Shown here: in pieces, positions 281-50,627 of the stretch
Layout: each line of letters opens with the position of its first letter
Numbering within the stretch: position 1 is the first letter of the stretch
Source: Turneriella parva
GTDB taxonomy: Bacteria; Spirochaetota; Leptospiria; Turneriellales; Turneriellaceae
Direction: 5' to 3'
Assembly (NCBI GenBank): GCA_020719945.1
Contig: DYPL01000009.1
Span: 6,960 to 57,586, forward strand
DNA: 50,627 nt
Program-made: the position numbers and the translations under genes
Notes under the pieces: model-generated
The model's input: the letters and a program-made list of their open reading frames with translations, nothing else
What the model was told of the DNA's origin: nothing
Database searches by the model: none

Positions 281-841
281 ATGCATTTTGCCGATCTCCT
301 GCGATCCTCTTTATCTTCGCGCGATGAATTCTGGAACCAGTTTACCCATGTGGCACCTTCGGATGTCCGCAGAGAAACCCTCCATGCCGTTTTGCTTGCT
401 CTTCCCCTGCCCATCCTGTTTTTTGCAGCATTGGAAATCATGGGCAGATTTTCGATGCTGAGTCTTGCCAAAGCGATGCTCGCACCTGTCATTCTTATCT
501 CAGGTATTATCGCTTTGTTTTACGTAATATCTCTGTTTCTCCGGGGAACGCTTCAACAAAAAGGAGTGCAGCCTGGCAAATACCAGATCTACCGCATGGT
601 GTTAATGAGCGGGCTTCCCATGCTCACGGGAACTTTTCTCTGGATATTTCCCCTGATTGCCCTGTTGCTCTACGTGCTTCTAATGGCTCGAATGCTCTTT
701 ATTTTAGCGGGTGGCCTTAAACATGCTTTTGCACTGGCAGACGAACAAGCCTGGAAAATTACCGCAACGAGCATGGTAGCCACGGGATTCGCTGGCCTGT
801 TTTTACTGCTTCTAGCCAGTCTGGTTACCTCAATTGTGTAA
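281..841 (+). CDS. Integral membrane protein, possibly Yip1-like
   Basis: The 186-residue product has a short charged N-terminus (about residues 1-35) followed by four or five hydrophobic stretches, roughly residues 36-58, 63-90, 105-145 and 162-186. The length, the polar N-terminus and the run of helices ending at the C-terminus fit the loosely defined bacterial Yip1/YIF1-like membrane family, but I see no diagnostic motif. The start lies 3 bases downstream of the ATPase stop, suggesting translational coupling with the cation pump. Function unknown; a role beside the pump would be a guess. Confidence 0.6.
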   Translation: MHFADLLRSSLSSRDEFWNQFTHVAPSDVRRETLHAVLLALPLPILFFAALEIMGRFSMLSLAKAMLAPVILISGIIALFYVISLFLRGTLQQKGVQPGKYQIYRMVLMSGLPMLTGTFLWIFPLIALLLYVLLMARMLFILAGGLKHAFALADEQAWKITATSMVATGFAGLFLLLLASLVTSIV

Positions 842-895
842 CTTTCTATTTATTTACTTTACAAAGACAGTATATAAAGAGAAAGAGTCCTCATT

Positions 896-1612
896 ATGAG
901 TACTGTTAAAATCTATCCCTTTAAACCCGGTCAGGGTGACCTTGGCGAGCACAAGGCAAAATCCAAGCGAGTCAATTCTGAGCTGGGCAAAAATTCTCTC
1001 ACAGAAAAACAGCAGACGATTCTCGATTTTATCAGAGACCATATTGAATCGGTGGGATACCCGCCGACCGTGCGCCAGATTGCAACGTATTACTCCATTT
1101 CTGCCAAAGCCGCACACGACCATGTTCGCGCCATTGCTCGCAAAGGATACATCAATCTTTCTCCGGGGTTTGCGCGCGGCATTGAACTCGTAAAAGACGA
1201 AGAAGACTTAGTAGAAACCGTGACAATTCCGCTGCTCGGACGAATCGCTGCCGGCGTACCCATTCTCGCAGAAGAGAACATCGACGAAAAAATAGCACTG
1301 CCAAAATCCTTTGTTCCACCAACCGGGAACATGTTTGCCCTCCAGGTAAAAGGCGACTCCATGGAAAAGGCAGGCATTTTCGATGGCGATATAGCCGTAC
1401 TGCGCCAAGTCACCAACTACGCCATTGAAGTGCGTGACGGAGATATCGTGGCTGCGCTTATCGATGGGAGCGCAACGCTAAAAACGTACCGCGCTAAAGG
1501 AAAACAGCTTTTTCTCCAGCCCGAAAACGATCGCTACAGCAATATTCCGCTCACCGGAAAAGATCCCGTTTCCATTGTCGGAAAACTGAGCGGAATTTAT
1601 CGCAAATACTGA
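896..1612 (+). CDS. lexA: LexA repressor (SOS regulator, S24 self-cleaving)
   Basis: LexA represses SOS genes and inactivates itself by RecA-stimulated autocleavage. The winged helix-turn-helix occupies about residues 35-98 (LTEKQQTILDFI, then GYPPTVRQIA). The cleavage site is Ala119-Gly120 in GRIAAGVPI. The catalytic dyad is Ser155 (GDSMEKAG) and Lys196 (SATLKTYR). All key residues are present, so it should be active. At 238 residues it is longer than typical LexA (about 200) because of a basic 34-residue extension before the HTH. No internal ATG or GTG lies between residue 1 and the HTH, so the extension is probably real. I found no convincing SOS operator upstream; an AT-rich stretch (TATATAAAGAG) lies just before the start. 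Its stop shares one base with the deoB start (TGATG). Confidence 0.95.
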   Translation: MSTVKIYPFKPGQGDLGEHKAKSKRVNSELGKNSLTEKQQTILDFIRDHIESVGYPPTVRQIATYYSISAKAAHDHVRAIARKGYINLSPGFARGIELVKDEEDLVETVTIPLLGRIAAGVPILAEENIDEKIALPKSFVPPTGNMFALQVKGDSMEKAGIFDGDIAVLRQVTNYAIEVRDGDIVAALIDGSATLKTYRAKGKQLFLQPENDRYSNIPLTGKDPVSIVGKLSGIYRKY

Positions 1613-42783: not shown

Positions 42784-45339
42784 ATGCGCCGTTATCTACC
42801 ATTTTTTTTGGTCTTGTGGGCGCTTCCCGCACTGGCACTGATTCAGGAAATTCCTCCTGAAGGAGCTGTTCTCGACTCTACGAAAGAATTCCCGTGGTAT
42901 GCCACCCAGGAGGCTGTAGAACCAGAACGGGAATCCCGCATCCTCGAAGAGATCGCGCAACCGGGAGAAATCTGGAAAGCGGTGACCATTCCAGGAAACT
43001 TGTTTGGACAACGCGGATTTTCCTTAAAAAAAGGACATCGCGCCTGGCTGCTCAAACTATTTAGCGCCTCGGTAAACAACAACGGTGAATTTGTTCTGCA
43101 CGCAGGGTTTATTACAGACAGAGACCGCGTATATCTAAATGGTCGGCTGATTGCGCAGACGGGAGAGTTTGGCGCGCGTTTGCCACAGGCTTATGAGAAA
43201 CAGCGCTATTACAGATTACCCGAAGAATATTTGCGACGCGGCGGCATCAATGTATTGCTGATCGAAGCAGAAGGCTACTTCAAGGACGAGATTGGGATAA
43301 CCGGCGGCGAAACAGAAATAAGACCGGCAGCAGTAATCTATAAAAAATACTTTTTTCAGAATCTGGCTCCCCTCTTTTTTCTGGCAATCTATATTACGGT
43401 GGCATCGTACTTTTTATTTTTATTTTTTCGTCGGCAGAAAGAAAAAACGAATTTGTTTTTTGCTCTTTTCGTGATTCTTCTCGTCATCTACCAGTTTCTC
43501 CGCACGGATATAAAGCATCTTATTTTCCCCGATTCTTTCTTTAACATGAAAAAACTGGAGTATCTGGTTTTATTTTCTGTGGTGCCTGCCTTTTACTTTT
43601 TCTTAAGAACTTATTTTACCCTGCAAAAAACAAAAGGGCTGCTGTTTCTCGACCGGTTAGTTTACCTGCCTCTGGGTGCACTCTCAGCCTCTTTTATTTA
43701 CGTCCTTTTTACTGACAATGTACTGCACTGGACTTCCATTAATAAAACAGTGGTGCAACTGTTTTCCTGGCCAATCATTATTATGGCGCTCATGCATATT
43801 TTGTGGCAGAGGATCAAGGCAAAAGATAAAGACGCGCTTGCTCTCGCATTTGGTCTCGTTGTCGTTATTATTTCTGTCGTCGTGGATGTGCTCACTTCCC
43901 GCAACGTCTTGAATCTGCCGCGCGTTTCCGGTTACACATTTTTTCTGTTTGTGATTGCCATGGCCACGGTGCTGGCCAATAAATTTGTGCGCGTCCACCA
44001 GCAGGTTGAGGAGCTCAACGAGTCGCTCGAAAAAAAAGTGGAGCTCAGAACGCGCGAGCTGCAGTTTTCCCTGGAGCAGGTTCAACTCATGAAGCAGCAG
44101 CAGGATGGAGATTATTTTTTGACATCGCTTCTGATTGACCCTCTTTCTGCCAACCGCGCCGAGAGTGATTTTTTAAGCGTTGAGTATATTGTGGAGTCTA
44201 AAAAGAAATTCAGTTTTCGCCGCTGGAAAAAAGAAATTGGCGGCGACCTGTGTGCCGCCCACAAGATTACTCTGCGCGGTAGATCTTTTGTCACTTTTAT
44301 GTCTGCCGATGCCATGGGTAAATCCATGCAGGGGGCCGGCGGTGTTCTCGTCGCGGGGTCTGTTTTTTCGAGCATTATAGAACGAACTCATTTGTCTTCT
44401 TCTGTATCTAGTCTGTACCCGGAGCAGTGGCTGCGTAATGCCATCATTGAGATTAATAAAATTTTTAAAAGCTTTGATGGTTCAATGCTGATTTCCATGG
44501 TGCTTGGCCTTGTAGACGAGCAAAACGGTTTTCTCTATTTCGTGAATGCAGAGCATCCTTTTTCCATTTTATACCGGGACAAAAAAGCATCGTTTATAGA
44601 AAAGGAAACGAATCTTCGCAAACTCGGCATGGCCGATGAAAACTTTGAAATACAAACGCTTCAACTTATGCCCGGAGATGTTTTTGTGGCTGGTTCGGAC
44701 GGGCGCGACGATATTCTTCTGGAAACGCCCGAAGGCAAAGTGATGAACGAAGACATGGATCGGATTTTATCCATCGCGGAGCAAAGCCAGGGCAGCCTTC
44801 CGGAAATGGTATCTCTGCTGCACCAGTCTGGCGAGATCTCCGACGATTTGTCGCTGTTGCGCATTGAGTTCCGCCATTCTCCGCCCCATCTTCTACCTGC
44901 CCAGACTGTTTCTATTCCTGACAATCTGGAGCAGTTCAAAGAATATCTTTCGCAATTTAACGACGCACCCGAATGGTATTCTCTCGCGCGGGAACTGTCT
45001 CTGGCTTTGTTTCGCCAGAAAAAATACAGCGAATGTTCCGACCTTTCGGAAGATCTAAGCAGCAGAAACCCTGCTCTCGAAGAGTTTATTTATTTGGCTT
45101 CTTACACGGCAAAACTTTCGGGACAGTATGCGCGCGCCATCCTGCTTTCTGAACGGCTGCGCCTTCGCAACCGCCGACACGCAAAAAATTTAGTAAATTT
45201 AATTGATTCCAGCATTGCCGATACGCGTTTTGAGAGAGCGGAAACTCTTCTCGAAGAAGCAGCATCGCTTGGTCTGGAAAATTCCAATATAGAGAGGCTC
45301 CGAAATGTATTACACAGCAAAAAGAAAAATATCGCTTAA
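42784..45339 (+). CDS. 7TMR-DISM sensor / SpoIIE PP2C phosphatase
   Basis: An 851-residue membrane signalling protein. Signal peptide MRRYLPFFLVLWALPALAL. A periplasmic jelly-roll-like sensor (about residues 60-180; GEFVLHAGFITDRDRVYLNG). Seven membrane helices (about 195-405). A coiled coil (VEELNESLEKKVELRTREL). A PP2C/SpoIIE domain (about 455-705; KKEIGGDLCAAHKI, MSADAMGKSMQGA, DVFVAGSDGRDDILL, ISDDLSLLRIEF) has the Asp residues that bind Mn/Mg. The last 140 residues look TPR-like (CSDLSEDLSSRNPALEEF). It probably dephosphorylates an anti-sigma factor antagonist or similar. This architecture is plentiful in Leptospira. AGGGGA precedes the ATG; TTGACA is 35 bases upstream. It overlaps the next gene by 35 bases. 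Confidence 0.9.
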   Translation: MRRYLPFFLVLWALPALALIQEIPPEGAVLDSTKEFPWYATQEAVEPERESRILEEIAQPGEIWKAVTIPGNLFGQRGFSLKKGHRAWLLKLFSASVNNNGEFVLHAGFITDRDRVYLNGRLIAQTGEFGARLPQAYEKQRYYRLPEEYLRRGGINVLLIEAEGYFKDEIGITGGETEIRPAAVIYKKYFFQNLAPLFFLAIYITVASYFLFLFFRRQKEKTNLFFALFVILLVIYQFLRTDIKHLIFPDSFFNMKKLEYLVLFSVVPAFYFFLRTYFTLQKTKGLLFLDRLVYLPLGALSASFIYVLFTDNVLHWTSINKTVVQLFSWPIIIMALMHILWQRIKAKDKDALALAFGLVVVIISVVVDVLTSRNVLNLPRVSGYTFFLFVIAMATVLANKFVRVHQQVEELNESLEKKVELRTRELQFSLEQVQLMKQQQDGDYFLTSLLIDPLSANRAESDFLSVEYIVESKKKFSFRRWKKEIGGDLCAAHKITLRGRSFVTFMSADAMGKSMQGAGGVLVAGSVFSSIIERTHLSSSVSSLYPEQWLRNAIIEINKIFKSFDGSMLISMVLGLVDEQNGFLYFVNAEHPFSILYRDKKASFIEKETNLRKLGMADENFEIQTLQLMPGDVFVAGSDGRDDILLETPEGKVMNEDMDRILSIAEQSQGSLPEMVSLLHQSGEISDDLSLLRIEFRHSPPHLLPAQTVSIPDNLEQFKEYLSQFNDAPEWYSLARELSLALFRQKKYSECSDLSEDLSSRNPALEEFIYLASYTAKLSGQYARAILLSERLRLRNRRHAKNLVNLIDSSIADTRFERAETLLEEAASLGLENSNIERLRNVLHSKKKNIA

Positions 45340-48300
45340 CTGGTTACCTTTATTCTCCTTGTTTTTTTTGGCGCACTGCGGCATGGGAGAACCGGCGCAG
45401 TCGTCCAAAGAGGGGATTCAATTATACGCCACCGACCCGGCCAGTCACAAATTTTCTGCCGCTTTAGATCCCGTATCCGATGCCATTGGCGCTGCCAGCA
45501 CTTCTGTGAAGTGTGCTCTATCTGGCCTGAACTCTTCTTCTATTGAGTCTGCCCTTGCCGGACGCGCATCGAACGGAATTCCCGTGACCCTTTACGCGGA
45601 TCGCGACAGCGTAAAGAAAGAAACGACTGTAACCGCAACGGCGTCGCGCTATAAGGGTTTTGAGAGGCTCATCAATACCCATGGATTTTCTCACAATTTA
45701 GATTCAGCCTCCTCTGGAACAAAAACAATCGTCTTTGGCAATACGGGCGATGGTCGCATGAGCTACAATTTTTGTCTCATTGATAACACCCAGGTTATTG
45801 TATCAACCGCTGCCTTAGACGAAGACGAATTGTTGTTAGAGCCTGCTGCCGTATTAATTTTTGGTTCTGGTGAGGATGGCATTTCCGTCGATTTTAAGCG
45901 CGAGCTCAACATGCTTTCCGAGGGTTCTTTTGGTGCAGCCAAAAACCGCACGGATTTGGCCACCAAGTATGCCGTTCGCGACCAGATTATTAGTTTATTC
46001 TGGGGTCAGCACGAAGATCCTGTTGAGGAGATAGCGGCGGATATTTTGCGCGCAAAGAAGTCGGTGGAGTTTTATTCTTCTTCTTTGAAGCAGACTTCTA
46101 CCACCGCATCTAAGGATATTGTCACTGCTTTGAAGACGGTGAATTCTACTGGTGTTTCTGTTGTAGCGCGCTTTTCCACGGCTGCACGCGAAGAGGCAAA
46201 CAACCTTATTCAGAATATTGTAGATGCGGGAATTACGCCTACTTACCTGACGAGTGAAGCATTGGGTGGAACGCAAATTTTTATTATAGACCGGGGCGAA
46301 ACCGACCAGCGGGTTCTACTGTATTCTGGTTCTCTGCATTCGCGCGGAAACAGCAGCGACGATTCTCTGCTCTTATCTCTAAAAGGCAAAACCTCTGTCA
46401 ATACCTACTCTTCTTTGCTGAACAAAATCGACGATTCCGTGAACGGAGCCCCCATTGTCATTAGCACGCTTCCAGAAAAGGACACTAACATTGCATTATA
46501 CCGCAAAACAATATCTATCACGTTCGACAAGGTCATGGATGCCAATACATTTTCCAATTCCGTACTCACTGCTAATGGTGAATTGTCGCATAATATTACC
46601 GGCATTAATTTTACAGGACTGGACGCCACGGGAAGAACGGCGTTTTTCTTTGTGCCTTTTTCTGTTGGAGAAATTGTTACGATCACATTGAACAATGTCG
46701 TGAAATCCGCCACGAATAAAACCATGGAGCAGCCTTATTCCTTTCAAGTGACTACTGTCGATAACGGCATTGCGTATCTTCAGATTACAGAAATAGAAGC
46801 GGATGCTACTATGGACTGGCTGGAAATTCGCGCTGTCTCTAGTGGAATATTGAGTGGCAGCAAGCTCCAGCTGTATAACAGCTCCGGAAATCTTACGGAA
46901 TATACGTTTCCGGAAACCACAACATCGGTTACCACTGGTAATTTTATCGTCGTGCACACACAGGAGACCGGGATCGATACAGCAACAGATTATTATCTCC
47001 CCACTGATATACAAACCTCGATTACAGCCACCGATGCCGTTCTGCTGCTGTTGGATAAAGATGGATACATGATGGATTTTGTAGCCTATGCCGATGGAGC
47101 CCCTGCCACTTCTCACCCGGCACTGGTAGATGCAGCCAAACTGCAGGCTGCATGGCTTACCAATGGGGCGGCGGGAGCCGTACAGGCAGATTTTGTCAAT
47201 TCTGCCAAAGATGATGCTACCACCAATACTTTAAGCCGCCACAAAAACACGGATTACCAGGATACCAATACCCATATTGACTGGGTCGCGGCGGCTGCAA
47301 GCAAAGGCAGCGAAAATGGCGCAACTACCGCAGAAACCTTTTCTCTCGTTTCAGCCCAATCCACGTCTTCTACGAACGTAGAAATCAATTTTTCGCATGC
47401 GCCGCTGCGCTATCTTGCAGAAACGGCTGCAAACTACTCCATCTCTCCCGCGATTTCCGTGCATGGAGCAACTCTGAATGGAACCAAAGTGACTCTCACG
47501 ACAGACGCTCAAACTTCTTCTACAGAGTACACCGTTACCGTAAATAATATCACCCGTTTTGGAGATGCCGCTACGCTAACGCCGAATACGAAAACCTTCA
47601 CTGGATACATTGTTCCAGGTGCGCCGGCAACAATCGCCATCAACGAAGTGTCCCCCGATGTAACCAGCACACCGTTTGACTGGATTGAATTGTATGTGGT
47701 GGATAACGGCAATACTAATCAATTTGTTTTAAAAGAAGGAACCAGCTCACTGATGATATTTCCTTCTGCAAACGTTACTGCGGGAGACTATATTCTCGTG
47801 CACTTAAAGGCCACCGGCAGCGAAATAAACGAAACGGCTTCCAAAACGCAGAGCAGCGACTTCGGATCTTCTGCCACCGCATGGGATTTTTATTCCTCTG
47901 ATACGGGACTCACCACAACAGACAATGTCATTACACTACTCTCCCCCGATACAAGCATTGCCGATGCTCTGGTGTTTGCGGATTACGGCGGGACTTTTTC
48001 CGGGAGCACAACAGAGGCAAACAATGCCATTACCGCCGGGGTGTGGAGCAAAGACGGTGGCAGTGTTGCCGAAACCGACGGCGCCTGGTCGGCAGAAGTG
48101 AGCTCTGCAAAATCAATCATGAGAAAGAGCGACAATTATACAGCGGGAAGCAAAAAGCGCTATAACTGGTTTGTGGCAACGGCAACCCCGGGAGCTACAA
48201 ATACAGGCAATGATTTTGCCCGAGCAACCGTTTCTTCTGCCGTGGCACCTTCCTCTTCCTCGCTTACGGTTACCTTTTCCCGCAACGTGGGCTCTGTAAC

Positions 48301-49096
48301 CCTTACTGATTTTTCTGTTACAGGCGGGTCTAGCTTAACGCTCAGCAATCCGGTTATTGCTGCCAACAAAGTTACCTTTGATACGACCTCGCAAACGGGT
48401 GGGACAAATTACACATTAAACTACAATGCAACTGGAATGGTGGATCCATATGGCGAGCCGTTAGCGGCAGCAGGGAGCACAGGCTTTGTGGGGTATCTTG
48501 CCCCCGCCTCTGCCGTTATTTCGGAAATATTTATGGATGACTCCCCAGATGCCTGCGAACTCACAATCACAGCACCGGGCAGCCTGACAAACTTCACCAT
48601 TGAATTAAACGATGGTCTAAAATACACTTTTCCATCCACTGTAGGGTTTTCGACAGGAGATGTTATTGTGGTGCACTGGCAAGCTACCGGAACGGACGAA
48701 GTGAATGGCAACCCTAACCTAAGCGCAGATACTGGTCATACCAACGGATATGATTTTTGGTTTTCATCAAGTACGACGATAACTTCTACTGATGCCGAAT
48801 TAACCCTAAAAAATAATACTGGCACTGTGTTAGACTATGCCGCATGGTACGATGTTGCTTTTGGTTCCGGCCAATCGACACGGGTCACAACGCATGTTTC
48901 CTCCGGACATTGGACAGATAATGGCGATGGATTAACGGAAGTTGATCTCATCAATTCAGCGCTTGACAATGGTACCGATAAATGTTTAATCAGAAATAAC
49001 GGAAGCACTGGAAATGGTACGCATACAGATACACATTCTGCCACAGACTGGTCTGCTAATACATGCAATCTGGGAAATAACCAGGCCGCTCCGTGA
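45305..49096 (+). CDS. Large lipoprotein: PLD-like domains plus lamin-tail-like repeats
   Basis: A 1263-residue lipoprotein (signal to FLAHC, Cys26). Residues of about 40-370 resemble two phospholipase-D-like halves (for example TKTIVFGN and FCLIDNTQVIVSTAALDEDE; FIIDRGETDQ then LLYSGSLHSRGNSSDDSL). However, the catalytic HxKxxxxD is missing in both, so it is probably inactive. Next a Big-like domain (about 380-480, ITFDKVMDANTFSNSVL). Then three lamin-tail (LTD)-like modules: YLQITEIEADATMDWLEI, IAINEVSPDVTSTPFDWIEL and AVISEIFMDDSPDACELT. Each is followed by strands ending in a DW motif (IDWVAAAASKG, YNWFVATATPG, TDWSANTCNLG). Bacterial LTD proteins are often surface-exposed. The start overlaps the phosphatase gene by 35 bases. 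Confidence 0.8.
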   Translation: MYYTAKRKISLNWLPLFSLFFLAHCGMGEPAQSSKEGIQLYATDPASHKFSAALDPVSDAIGAASTSVKCALSGLNSSSIESALAGRASNGIPVTLYADRDSVKKETTVTATASRYKGFERLINTHGFSHNLDSASSGTKTIVFGNTGDGRMSYNFCLIDNTQVIVSTAALDEDELLLEPAAVLIFGSGEDGISVDFKRELNMLSEGSFGAAKNRTDLATKYAVRDQIISLFWGQHEDPVEEIAADILRAKKSVEFYSSSLKQTSTTASKDIVTALKTVNSTGVSVVARFSTAAREEANNLIQNIVDAGITPTYLTSEALGGTQIFIIDRGETDQRVLLYSGSLHSRGNSSDDSLLLSLKGKTSVNTYSSLLNKIDDSVNGAPIVISTLPEKDTNIALYRKTISITFDKVMDANTFSNSVLTANGELSHNITGINFTGLDATGRTAFFFVPFSVGEIVTITLNNVVKSATNKTMEQPYSFQVTTVDNGIAYLQITEIEADATMDWLEIRAVSSGILSGSKLQLYNSSGNLTEYTFPETTTSVTTGNFIVVHTQETGIDTATDYYLPTDIQTSITATDAVLLLLDKDGYMMDFVAYADGAPATSHPALVDAAKLQAAWLTNGAAGAVQADFVNSAKDDATTNTLSRHKNTDYQDTNTHIDWVAAAASKGSENGATTAETFSLVSAQSTSSTNVEINFSHAPLRYLAETAANYSISPAISVHGATLNGTKVTLTTDAQTSSTEYTVTVNNITRFGDAATLTPNTKTFTGYIVPGAPATIAINEVSPDVTSTPFDWIELYVVDNGNTNQFVLKEGTSSLMIFPSANVTAGDYILVHLKATGSEINETASKTQSSDFGSSATAWDFYSSDTGLTTTDNVITLLSPDTSIADALVFADYGGTFSGSTTEANNAITAGVWSKDGGSVAETDGAWSAEVSSAKSIMRKSDNYTAGSKKRYNWFVATATPGATNTGNDFARATVSSAVAPSSSSLTVTFSRNVGSVTLTDFSVTGGSSLTLSNPVIAANKVTFDTTSQTGGTNYTLNYNATGMVDPYGEPLAAAGSTGFVGYLAPASAVISEIFMDDSPDACELTITAPGSLTNFTIELNDGLKYTFPSTVGFSTGDVIVVHWQATGTDEVNGNPNLSADTGHTNGYDFWFSSSTTITSTDAELTLKNNTGTVLDYAAWYDVAFGSGQSTRVTTHVSSGHWTDNGDGLTEVDLINSALDNGTDKCLIRNNGSTGNGTHTDTHSATDWSANTCNLGNNQAAP

Positions 49097-49340: not shown

Positions 49341-49373
49341 AACTCAGAAGGGAAAGACCACCGTGGCGGGCGC

Positions 49374-50602
49374 TTGGTAGGTAACAAAACGTGAGTATGA
49401 GACATAATGTGGCGAACGGTTGGTAGGTAACAAAACCCGTAAGTATGAGACATAATATGCCGAACGCTTGGTAGGTAACAAAACCCGAGTATGAGACATA
49501 ATGTGGCGCGCCGTTGGTAGGTAACAAAACCCGTGAGTATGAGACATAATGCGGCGCGCCGTTGGTAGGTAACAAAACCCGTGAGTATGAGACATAATGT
49601 GGCAGGCGCTTGGTAGGTAACAAAACCCGAGTATGAGACATAATGCGGCGAACGCTTGGTAGGTAACAAAACGTGAGTATGAGACATAATGCAGCGGACG
49701 CTTGGTAGGTAACAAACCGTGAGTATGAGACATAATGTGGCGAACGCTTGGTAGGTAACAAAACCGTGAGTATGAGACATAATGTGGCGGACGCTTGGTA
49801 GGTAACAAAACCCGTGAGTATGAGACATAATATGGCGAACGGTTGGTAGGTAACAAAACGGGAGTAGGAGACATAATATGGCAGGCGCTTGGTAGGTAAC
49901 AAAACGTGAGTATGAGACATAATGCGGCATGCCGTTGGTAGGTAACAAAACCCGTAAGTATGAGACATAATACAGCGCGCCGTTGGTAGGTAACAAAACC
50001 CGTGAGTATGAGACATAATGTGCCGAACGGTTGGTAGGTAACAAAACCCGTGAGTATGAGACATAATGCGGCGAACGCTTGGTAGGTAACAAAACGTGAG
50101 TATGAGACATAATATGCCGAACGCTTGGTAGGTAACAAAACGTGAGTATGAGACATAATGCAGCGGCCGCTTGGTAGGTAACAAAACCCGTGAGTATGAG
50201 ACATAATATGCCGAACGCTTGGTAGGTAACAAAACCCGTGAGTATGAGACATAATATGGCGGGCGCTTGGTAGGTAACAAAACCCGTGAGTAGGAGACAT
50301 AATATGCCGAACGCTTGGTAGGTAACAAAACCCGTGAGTATGAGACATAATGTGGCGGGCGCTTGGTAGGTAACAAAACCCATGAGTATGAGACATAATA
50401 TGCCGAACGCTTGGTAGGTAACAAAACCCGTGAGTATGAGACATAATATGCCGAACGCTTGGTAGGTAACAAAACCCGTGAGTATGAGACATAATATGGC
50501 GGGCGCTTGGTAGGTAACAAAACCCGTGAGTAGGAGACATAATATGCCGAACGCTTGGTAGGTAACAAAACCCGTGAGTATGAGACATAATGCAGCGGCC
50601 GC
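49374..50602. repeat. Direct-repeat array, 26 units of 46-48 bp with variable 11-bp tracts
   Basis: Repeat starts (TTGGTAGG) are at 49374, 49420, 49468, 49514, 49562, 49610, 49656, 49702, 49748, 49795, 49843, 49889, 49935, 49983, 50031, 50079, 50125, 50171, 50219, 50267, 50315, 50363, 50411, 50459, 50507 and 50555. Each unit has TTGGTAGGTAACAAAAC, a short CCGTGAG or GTGAG variant, then TATGAGACATAAT (about 37 bases), then 11 variable bases. A first variable tract (49363-49373) precedes unit 1. The commonest tract is ATGCCGAACGC; others include GCAGCGGCCGC, GTGGCGCGCCG, GCGGCATGCCG and GTGGCGGGCGC. The left half contains most of the 46-47-bp units; the right third is uniform at 48. The minus strand has no stop in any frame, giving three long but artificial open frames. 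No cas, integrase or transposase gene is near. Function unknown. Confidence 0.97.
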
Positions 50603-50620
50603 TCTGGCGGTTGTTTTTTT
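50599..50620 (+). terminator. Possible weak terminator at the end of the array
   Basis: CCGC-TCTG-GCGG, a 4-bp stem, followed by TTG and seven T. It directly follows the last repeat. If active, it would mean the array is transcribed on the plus strand. Confidence 0.35.
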
Positions 50621-50627
50621 ATTTATT

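Follow-up and report, generated by a model that had tools for sequence, protein, structure and literature searches.

One end of the window, by which we mean the whole 50,627-bp stretch of DNA analysed, carries an array of 26 head-to-tail units in which two conserved boxes alternate with variable linkers. With a probability of about one half, we read this array as a series of composite protein-binding sites, built by local duplication and with freely drifting linkers, that may serve as a reservoir titrating or clustering the protein that recognizes one of the boxes, box A. The array is real and appears to be neither an RNA locus nor a plain minisatellite; to judge from its sequence, it probably consists of protein-bound composite sites that use a motif old in this class of spirochaetes, the one to which the relatives of Leptospira belong.

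The array and its surroundings are composed as follows.

45305 to 49096, + strand: left neighbour, a 1263-aa protein that reads towards the array and has a weak lamin-tail-domain match.
49363 to 49373, no strand: leading tract before unit 1, GTGGCGGGCGC, at the left array edge.
49374 to 50591, no strand: tandem array of 26 units, in the + strand order box B, linker 1, box A, linker 2.
49374 to 49387, no strand: box B of unit 1, TTGGTAGGTAACAA, a 14-bp near-palindrome with a 2-bp centre that opens every unit.
49388 to 49396, no strand: linker 1 of unit 1, which differs between units in sequence and length.
49397 to 49408, - strand: box A of unit 1, ATTATGTCTCAT on this strand, present once per unit.
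49409 to 49419, no strand: linker 2 of unit 1, the GC-rich 11-bp tract, GTGGCGAACGG, from the column-wise comparison of units.
50171 to 50314, no strand: units 18-20, which in the unit code map form a 3-unit block with the same sequence as units 23-25.
50411 to 50554, no strand: units 23-25, the second copy of this block in the unit code map, 240 bp further on.
50573 to 50627, no strand: 55 bp shared exactly with the end of C44, another contig of this genome, on which the right neighbour lies.
50594 to 50621, + strand: terminator-like hairpin and T run directly behind the array and partly within the last tract.

TRF (period 48, 26.0 copies, 89% matches) and the unit table agree on the 26 units that had been predicted for this region. 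Units measure 46 bp (9/26), 47 bp (1/26) or 48 bp (16/26, the last unit being taken as 48), and every unit is followed by an 11-bp GC-rich tract, the final one at 50592-50602. The window comes from contig C99 of a draft genome of 2.42 Mb, and both window and contig end 25 bp past the last tract. Because the contig stops there and overlaps C44 by 55 bp, the copy number of the array rests on the draft assembly; copy numbers at the other loci also come from draft assemblies, in which several arrays contain N gaps. The lamin-tail-domain match of the left neighbour scores 28.2 bits, under the Pfam cut-off of 34.3. The right neighbour is a 321-aa protein with no Pfam match that also reads towards the array, and in the sister species both neighbours lie on one contig. 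Support for the hairpin after the array is weak, two terminator-like sites being found where 1.8 are expected; a similar CTCTGGCGG...TTTTTTT edge is also retained in the sister species.

Variation within the units follows the boxes closely. Box B is invariant in 26/26 units, and its dyad pattern has 28 matches in the window compared to 1.0 expected. Box A, which reads ATGAGACATAAT on the + strand (also given as ATGNGACATAAT), has a single varying column: it is intact in 23 units and carries one substitution, T to G, in the remaining 3. Matches to box A number 26 in the array and 35 in the whole window, where 12.8 are expected by chance. In total 15/22 linker columns vary, compared to 1/26 box columns (Fisher P 2e-6). 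The 11-bp GC-rich tract of the original prediction is the most variable part: 9/11 of its columns vary, with a mean pairwise difference per site of 0.34 compared to 0.064 in the other 37 columns. The further statement that changes are confined to the tract is refuted by linker 1, a second variable stretch inside the supposedly fixed 37 bp (variants CCCGTG, CGTG, CCCG, CCGTG, CGGG, CCCGTA and CCCATG), where columns 16-22 vary and indels occur. Given the three unit lengths, the fixed part measures 35-37 bp. The 11-bp tract looks like an unconstrained linker and not like the information-bearing part of the unit.

The free combination of tract halves described earlier was overstated. The ATGC front half is paired with CGAACGC in 7/7 cases, 17 distinct tracts are seen compared to 19.4 ± 1.3 under free assortment of halves (P 0.07 for so low a number), and the block of units 18-20 is found again five units later as units 23-25, as in ordinary multi-unit duplication. 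The combinatorial look of the tracts is partly linkage. Palindromes of 8-10 bp occur in the tracts of 5 units compared to 1.4 expected with columns shuffled, an excess that can also follow from linkage between columns. A third dyad in the tract was rejected, as all four combinations occur between columns 4 and 11, which hence show no pairing constraint.

The window array is one of dozens of intergenic elements of this kind in the genome and in its sister species. The same unit type is present at many other loci of the genome, often at contig ends. From the pooled loci, the element is defined by box A (ATTATGTCNCAT, the opposite strand of the window form) followed by box B (TTRNTA-NN-TANNAA). 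This A-then-B pattern has 47 copies in the window's genome and 125 in the sister species, the sole other genome of the genus, while the reversed control gave 0 and the other 46 genomes of the class gave only two single matches. A scan of genome contigs for spread beyond the genus returned the sister species and scattered single matches, two of which were inspected and found unremarkable. The likeness to Leptospira VNTR loci that had been suggested is therefore a loose one: the genomes that bear the unit belong to one genus, and wider relatives share the boxes alone. Across the two species, linker 1 is 9-11 bp long in 87/96 distinct units and linker 2 is 8-12 bp long in 68/71 of the units in which it could be measured. 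Linker sequences differ from array to array, and those of linker 1 include many unrelated sequences. The two half-sites of box B vary independently within a small repertoire (TTGGTA, TTGTTA, TTAGTA); perfect dyads make up 10 of 33 distinct box B sequences, compared to 9.6 after random re-pairing of halves. Since the arms do not covary, a site for a protein dimer fits box B better than a fold does, and box B as a fold was rejected.

Several other features were seen near these elements. A second repeat, with a promoter-like core TTKACA...TATANT followed by GGAAYGGCGGGTGCC, lies near many array ends, at ~13-27 bp where measured and usually pointing away from the array (L007, L009, L012 and L144 in the window's genome; L064, L065, L068, L153, L157 and L189 in the sister species). 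At L146:1587-1742, near parA/parB-like genes, a box A copy has TTGACA 17 bp upstream of its TTATGT and is followed within ~60 bp by a GC hairpin and a T run, so that the whole resembles a transcription unit of very small length; ~130 bp further on there is another box A copy, in inverted orientation. A solitary box-B-like site, TTTGGTAGATAACAAAC, is found at L040 ~1250 next to an ORF of unknown family.

Box A reaches far beyond the genus. It was found in 48/48 genomes of the class, typically in ~10-160 copies and in 321 copies in the sister species, while a reversed box A control mostly gave 0-2 per genome. Enrichment is unclear in the genera g12, g14 and g23, so that "class-wide" has exceptions, and in G018 the box A counts do not represent independent sites, because most matches belong to a longer repeated sequence; at loci L201-L225 they mostly lie inside repeats with GTGGGAACTCC or GGTGGAACTCC. 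The window's genome holds 87 exact copies, of which 13 were found as single sites outside arrays and the other ~74 lie apart from these; arrays and array remnants thus hold most box A copies. In G004, a member of the same family but of another genus, box A has 159 copies, and most of the 43 copies listed stand ~8-11 bp after a TTGTTAGTTACTAA-type dyad, in elements that are single. In G007 (same family, genus of G005) box A and a GGGGATAACTATCCCC-type dyad form arrays with a period of 31 or 39-40 bp. Together, the G004 singles and the G007 arrays indicate that the pairing of box A with a TAnnTA-centred dyad is shared at the level of the family, and the latter that array formation is not limited to one genus. 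In G004, the loci L231-L253 and L275-L294 carry intergenic mosaics of the palindromes TTCAGGAATTCCTGAA and TGGGGAATTCCCCA and of TGTCGGA pairs beside A-B elements.

Box A is also present on its own at gene starts, as taken from simple ORF reading. In G005 its sites have differing flanks, and many are at gene starts in either orientation. The form ATGTGACATAAT is positioned 0-1 bp before the ATG of one coiled-coil gene (MLELAIP.../MLEYALP...) in G000 (the window's genome), G001, G004, G005 and G007, that is in five genomes of three genera, the sequence further upstream differing between genera. Box A further precedes genes that were read from their sequence as fliO (G000, G005) and flhB (G005), and a beta-CASP RNase-like gene (Pfam) in G000 and G004. 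In both species of the genus, a box A copy lies between a DegT-like and a dnaA-like gene (L137:1502, L153:5400). The promoter region of the lexA-like gene of the window (841-896) carries neither box, and the array as a set of LexA operators was rejected. A search of the open literature for exact box A strings gave no relevant match and returned unrelated papers only.

The dispersal of the element raises the possibility that it is a selfish, REP-like interspersed repeat, mobilized by a transposase acting in trans on box A-like ends, with arrays as functionless by-products. Dozens of intergenic copies in two species, an element present at a site in one species and absent from it in the other, the inverted box A copies that bound many elements, and arrays that adjoin other repeat families all fit such an origin, as does the distribution of array flanks (21 gene 5' ends and 32 gene 3' ends, P 0.17), which shows no clear gene-start preference. 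The conservation of the boxes could likewise reflect the mechanism that spreads the element instead of a host function. Set against this, no transposase adjoins those arrays whose neighbours were examined, no target-site duplication was seen by eye at element edges, and the spreading of a repeat does not explain why a single box A is conserved before the same genes in other genera. The REP/BIME repeats of enterobacteria and pseudomonads, which are reported to bind several proteins (PMC2817692), are also short, partly palindromic and clustered, with many intergenic copies per genome, as is found here for the 47 and 125 A-B copies (the loci examined being intergenic). They differ in being built on a single stem-loop with a GTAG or CGTC tag at its foot, whereas the present units are directly repeated and contain two different boxes, no such tag is common to all box B variants (TTGTTAGATAACAA, for instance, has no GTAG on either strand), and box A also stands singly at conserved gene starts. 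We regard a selfish repeat as a possible but doubtful explanation. A viral or phage origin was rejected, the 17 single matches in 2.9 million viral contigs, never more than one per contig, being taken as chance.

How the arrays change was followed at four loci where the window's genome could be compared with the sister species. At the window locus the sister array lies between the same neighbours and has another unit, CACAACGATGGGTACCTAACAAACATTGAGTATGTGACATAAT, 43 bp long by position. This interval of the sister (L189:642-1275, 2009-2293) also contains a ParE-like gene and a nucleotidyltransferase/HepT-like pair, with repeated GACCACCGTTGGCGGGTGGCGATG sequence on their flanks. At L008 the window's genome has one unit, while the corresponding site of the sister, L156, has at least 6 (six listed and an assembly gap) within alike flanks. 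At the L013 site the arrays of the two species are oppositely oriented and have unrelated linkers, and at the L015 site one element is present in the window's genome and none in the sister. The arrays thus change by tandem growth and by gain and loss, with the boxes kept. Of the suggested recombination-driven variable locus, growth by tandem duplication and turnover between species are retained; other senses of the term are not.

Tandem growth, multi-unit duplication and different copy numbers at the same site in two species are what an ordinary minisatellite would show, in which slippage acts on a unit that happens to have fixed and drifting parts, and the lack of a coding or RNA signal agrees with it. 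In a minisatellite, however, substitutions are spread regardless of position, whereas here variation is strongly non-uniform and tracks the boxes, which are found again at dozens of unrelated places, in a second species and, with alterations, in further genera. The Leptospira VNTR or minisatellite typing loci (PMC1185519) resemble the array as tandem repeats of varying copy number in relatives of the same class; they differ from it in that, in the present case, both boxes are retained, drift is limited to the linkers, and copies of the unit are scattered through the genome. A minisatellite, already disfavoured, is accordingly unlikely, in line with the original suspicion that the array is not a plain one.

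The boxes might instead be sigma-70-like sites on both strands, giving rise to short transcripts or to antisense transcription into the neighbours. The region contains 38 promoter-like matches compared to 2.5 expected, with GTAACA-16/18-CATAAT on the + strand of all units and TTGTTA-18-TATTAT on the - strand of about half, and box A copies that stand singly coincide in part with a plausible -10 region immediately before start codons. These matches, however, are at the minimum score of the scan (9/12), and they arise on both strands because TTGTTA, GTAACA and CATAAT/TATTAT lie inside the boxes. The array site between converging genes, the presence of single box A copies at gene starts in both orientations, and a spacing in G004 that does not fit a 16-18 bp spacer also argue against promoters, which we hold to be improbable.

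An array of structured non-coding RNAs or of single-stranded hairpins such as integron-like sites, again already disfavoured, is the least credible reading: the near-palindromic box B and the excess of tract palindromes, which column linkage also yields, are outweighed by window units that, taken singly or in threes on both strands, fold no better than shuffled sequence (z -0.3 to +1.5), by half-sites that do not covary, and by the lack of any Rfam family match in the window, so that the suggested non-coding RNA array found no support and the conserved fold with covariation that marks a structured RNA family is missing. Three related assignments were also rejected. All three - strand frames are open across the array, and coding there is contradicted by the 46- and 47-bp units, which shift the frame, and no protein is kept. 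A CRISPR array requires spacers of more than 20 bp that are mostly unique; the present ones are only 11 bp, and one tract is present 7 times. Integron attC arrays have RYYYAAC...GTTRRRY cores, which are absent: the window units carry GGTAGGTAAC, GTTAGGT is found only in some other loci, and inside the arrays there is no room for gene cassettes.

Among the three roles proposed for the array at the outset, a protein-binding array fits, given that the boxes are retained from locus to locus and between the species, and with alterations in other genera, while the DNA separating them changes freely. Conserved boxes in regularly spaced units, joined by linkers that are free to vary, also characterize iteron, centromere and titration arrays. 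Plasmid iteron and centromere arrays, for example the sopC repeats of ~43 bp of the F plasmid, likewise consist of tandem units of ~43-48 bp that contain a dyad recognized by a protein and are joined by less conserved linkers; unlike these, the present arrays are chromosomal and occupy dozens of loci per genome, and no partition or replication gene adjoins the one in the window. The datA locus is a DnaA titration site and, under the effect proposed here, would be comparable in offering clustered additional sites to a protein whose regulatory sites lie at other places. It differs in that our boxes are not DnaA boxes (TTATNCACA), form 26 regular tandem units and are accompanied by a second box, box B. 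DnaA titration is the subject of PMC12371093.

On the protein-binding reading, each unit would offer two sites: box A (ATTATGTCNCAT), the 12-bp motif that in most genomes of the class is also present in single copies, frequently near the beginning of genes, and box B, whose 14-bp dyad with the half-site TTRNTA and a 2-bp centre would suit a dimeric DNA-binding protein. The boxes are kept, and the linkers roughly hold their length but not their sequence. Single A-B elements duplicate in tandem in place and so give rise to arrays, whose copy number and linkers vary between species. An operator role of the window array for its own neighbours is unlikely, because the genes converge and array flanks have no clear gene-start preference. 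We infer that the array most likely acts as a large site reservoir, titrating a protein for which box A serves as operator at other places or clustering it into a nucleoprotein assembly. If one protein occupies all copies, arrays must compete with the single sites, and titration or a nucleoprotein cluster would be the simplest consequence; it is the site numbers that suggest titration.

Going further, we tentatively propose, as a rather speculative extension, that an undescribed DNA-binding protein of most of the class uses ATTATGTCNCAT at the starts of coiled-coil, flagellar and RNase-like genes. Members of the family would have repeatedly arrayed its site, with up to 26 units here, so that arrayed sites outnumber the operators several-fold and could set the free level of the protein or form a chromosome-organising cluster. 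In this way an odd repeat becomes a lead on a regulator, through a 12-bp motif that is many-fold enriched over its reversed control in most genomes of the class. The arrays would provide a natural multi-copy bait for finding the binding protein, and the differences in array load between species a natural test of whether site number tunes the regulator.
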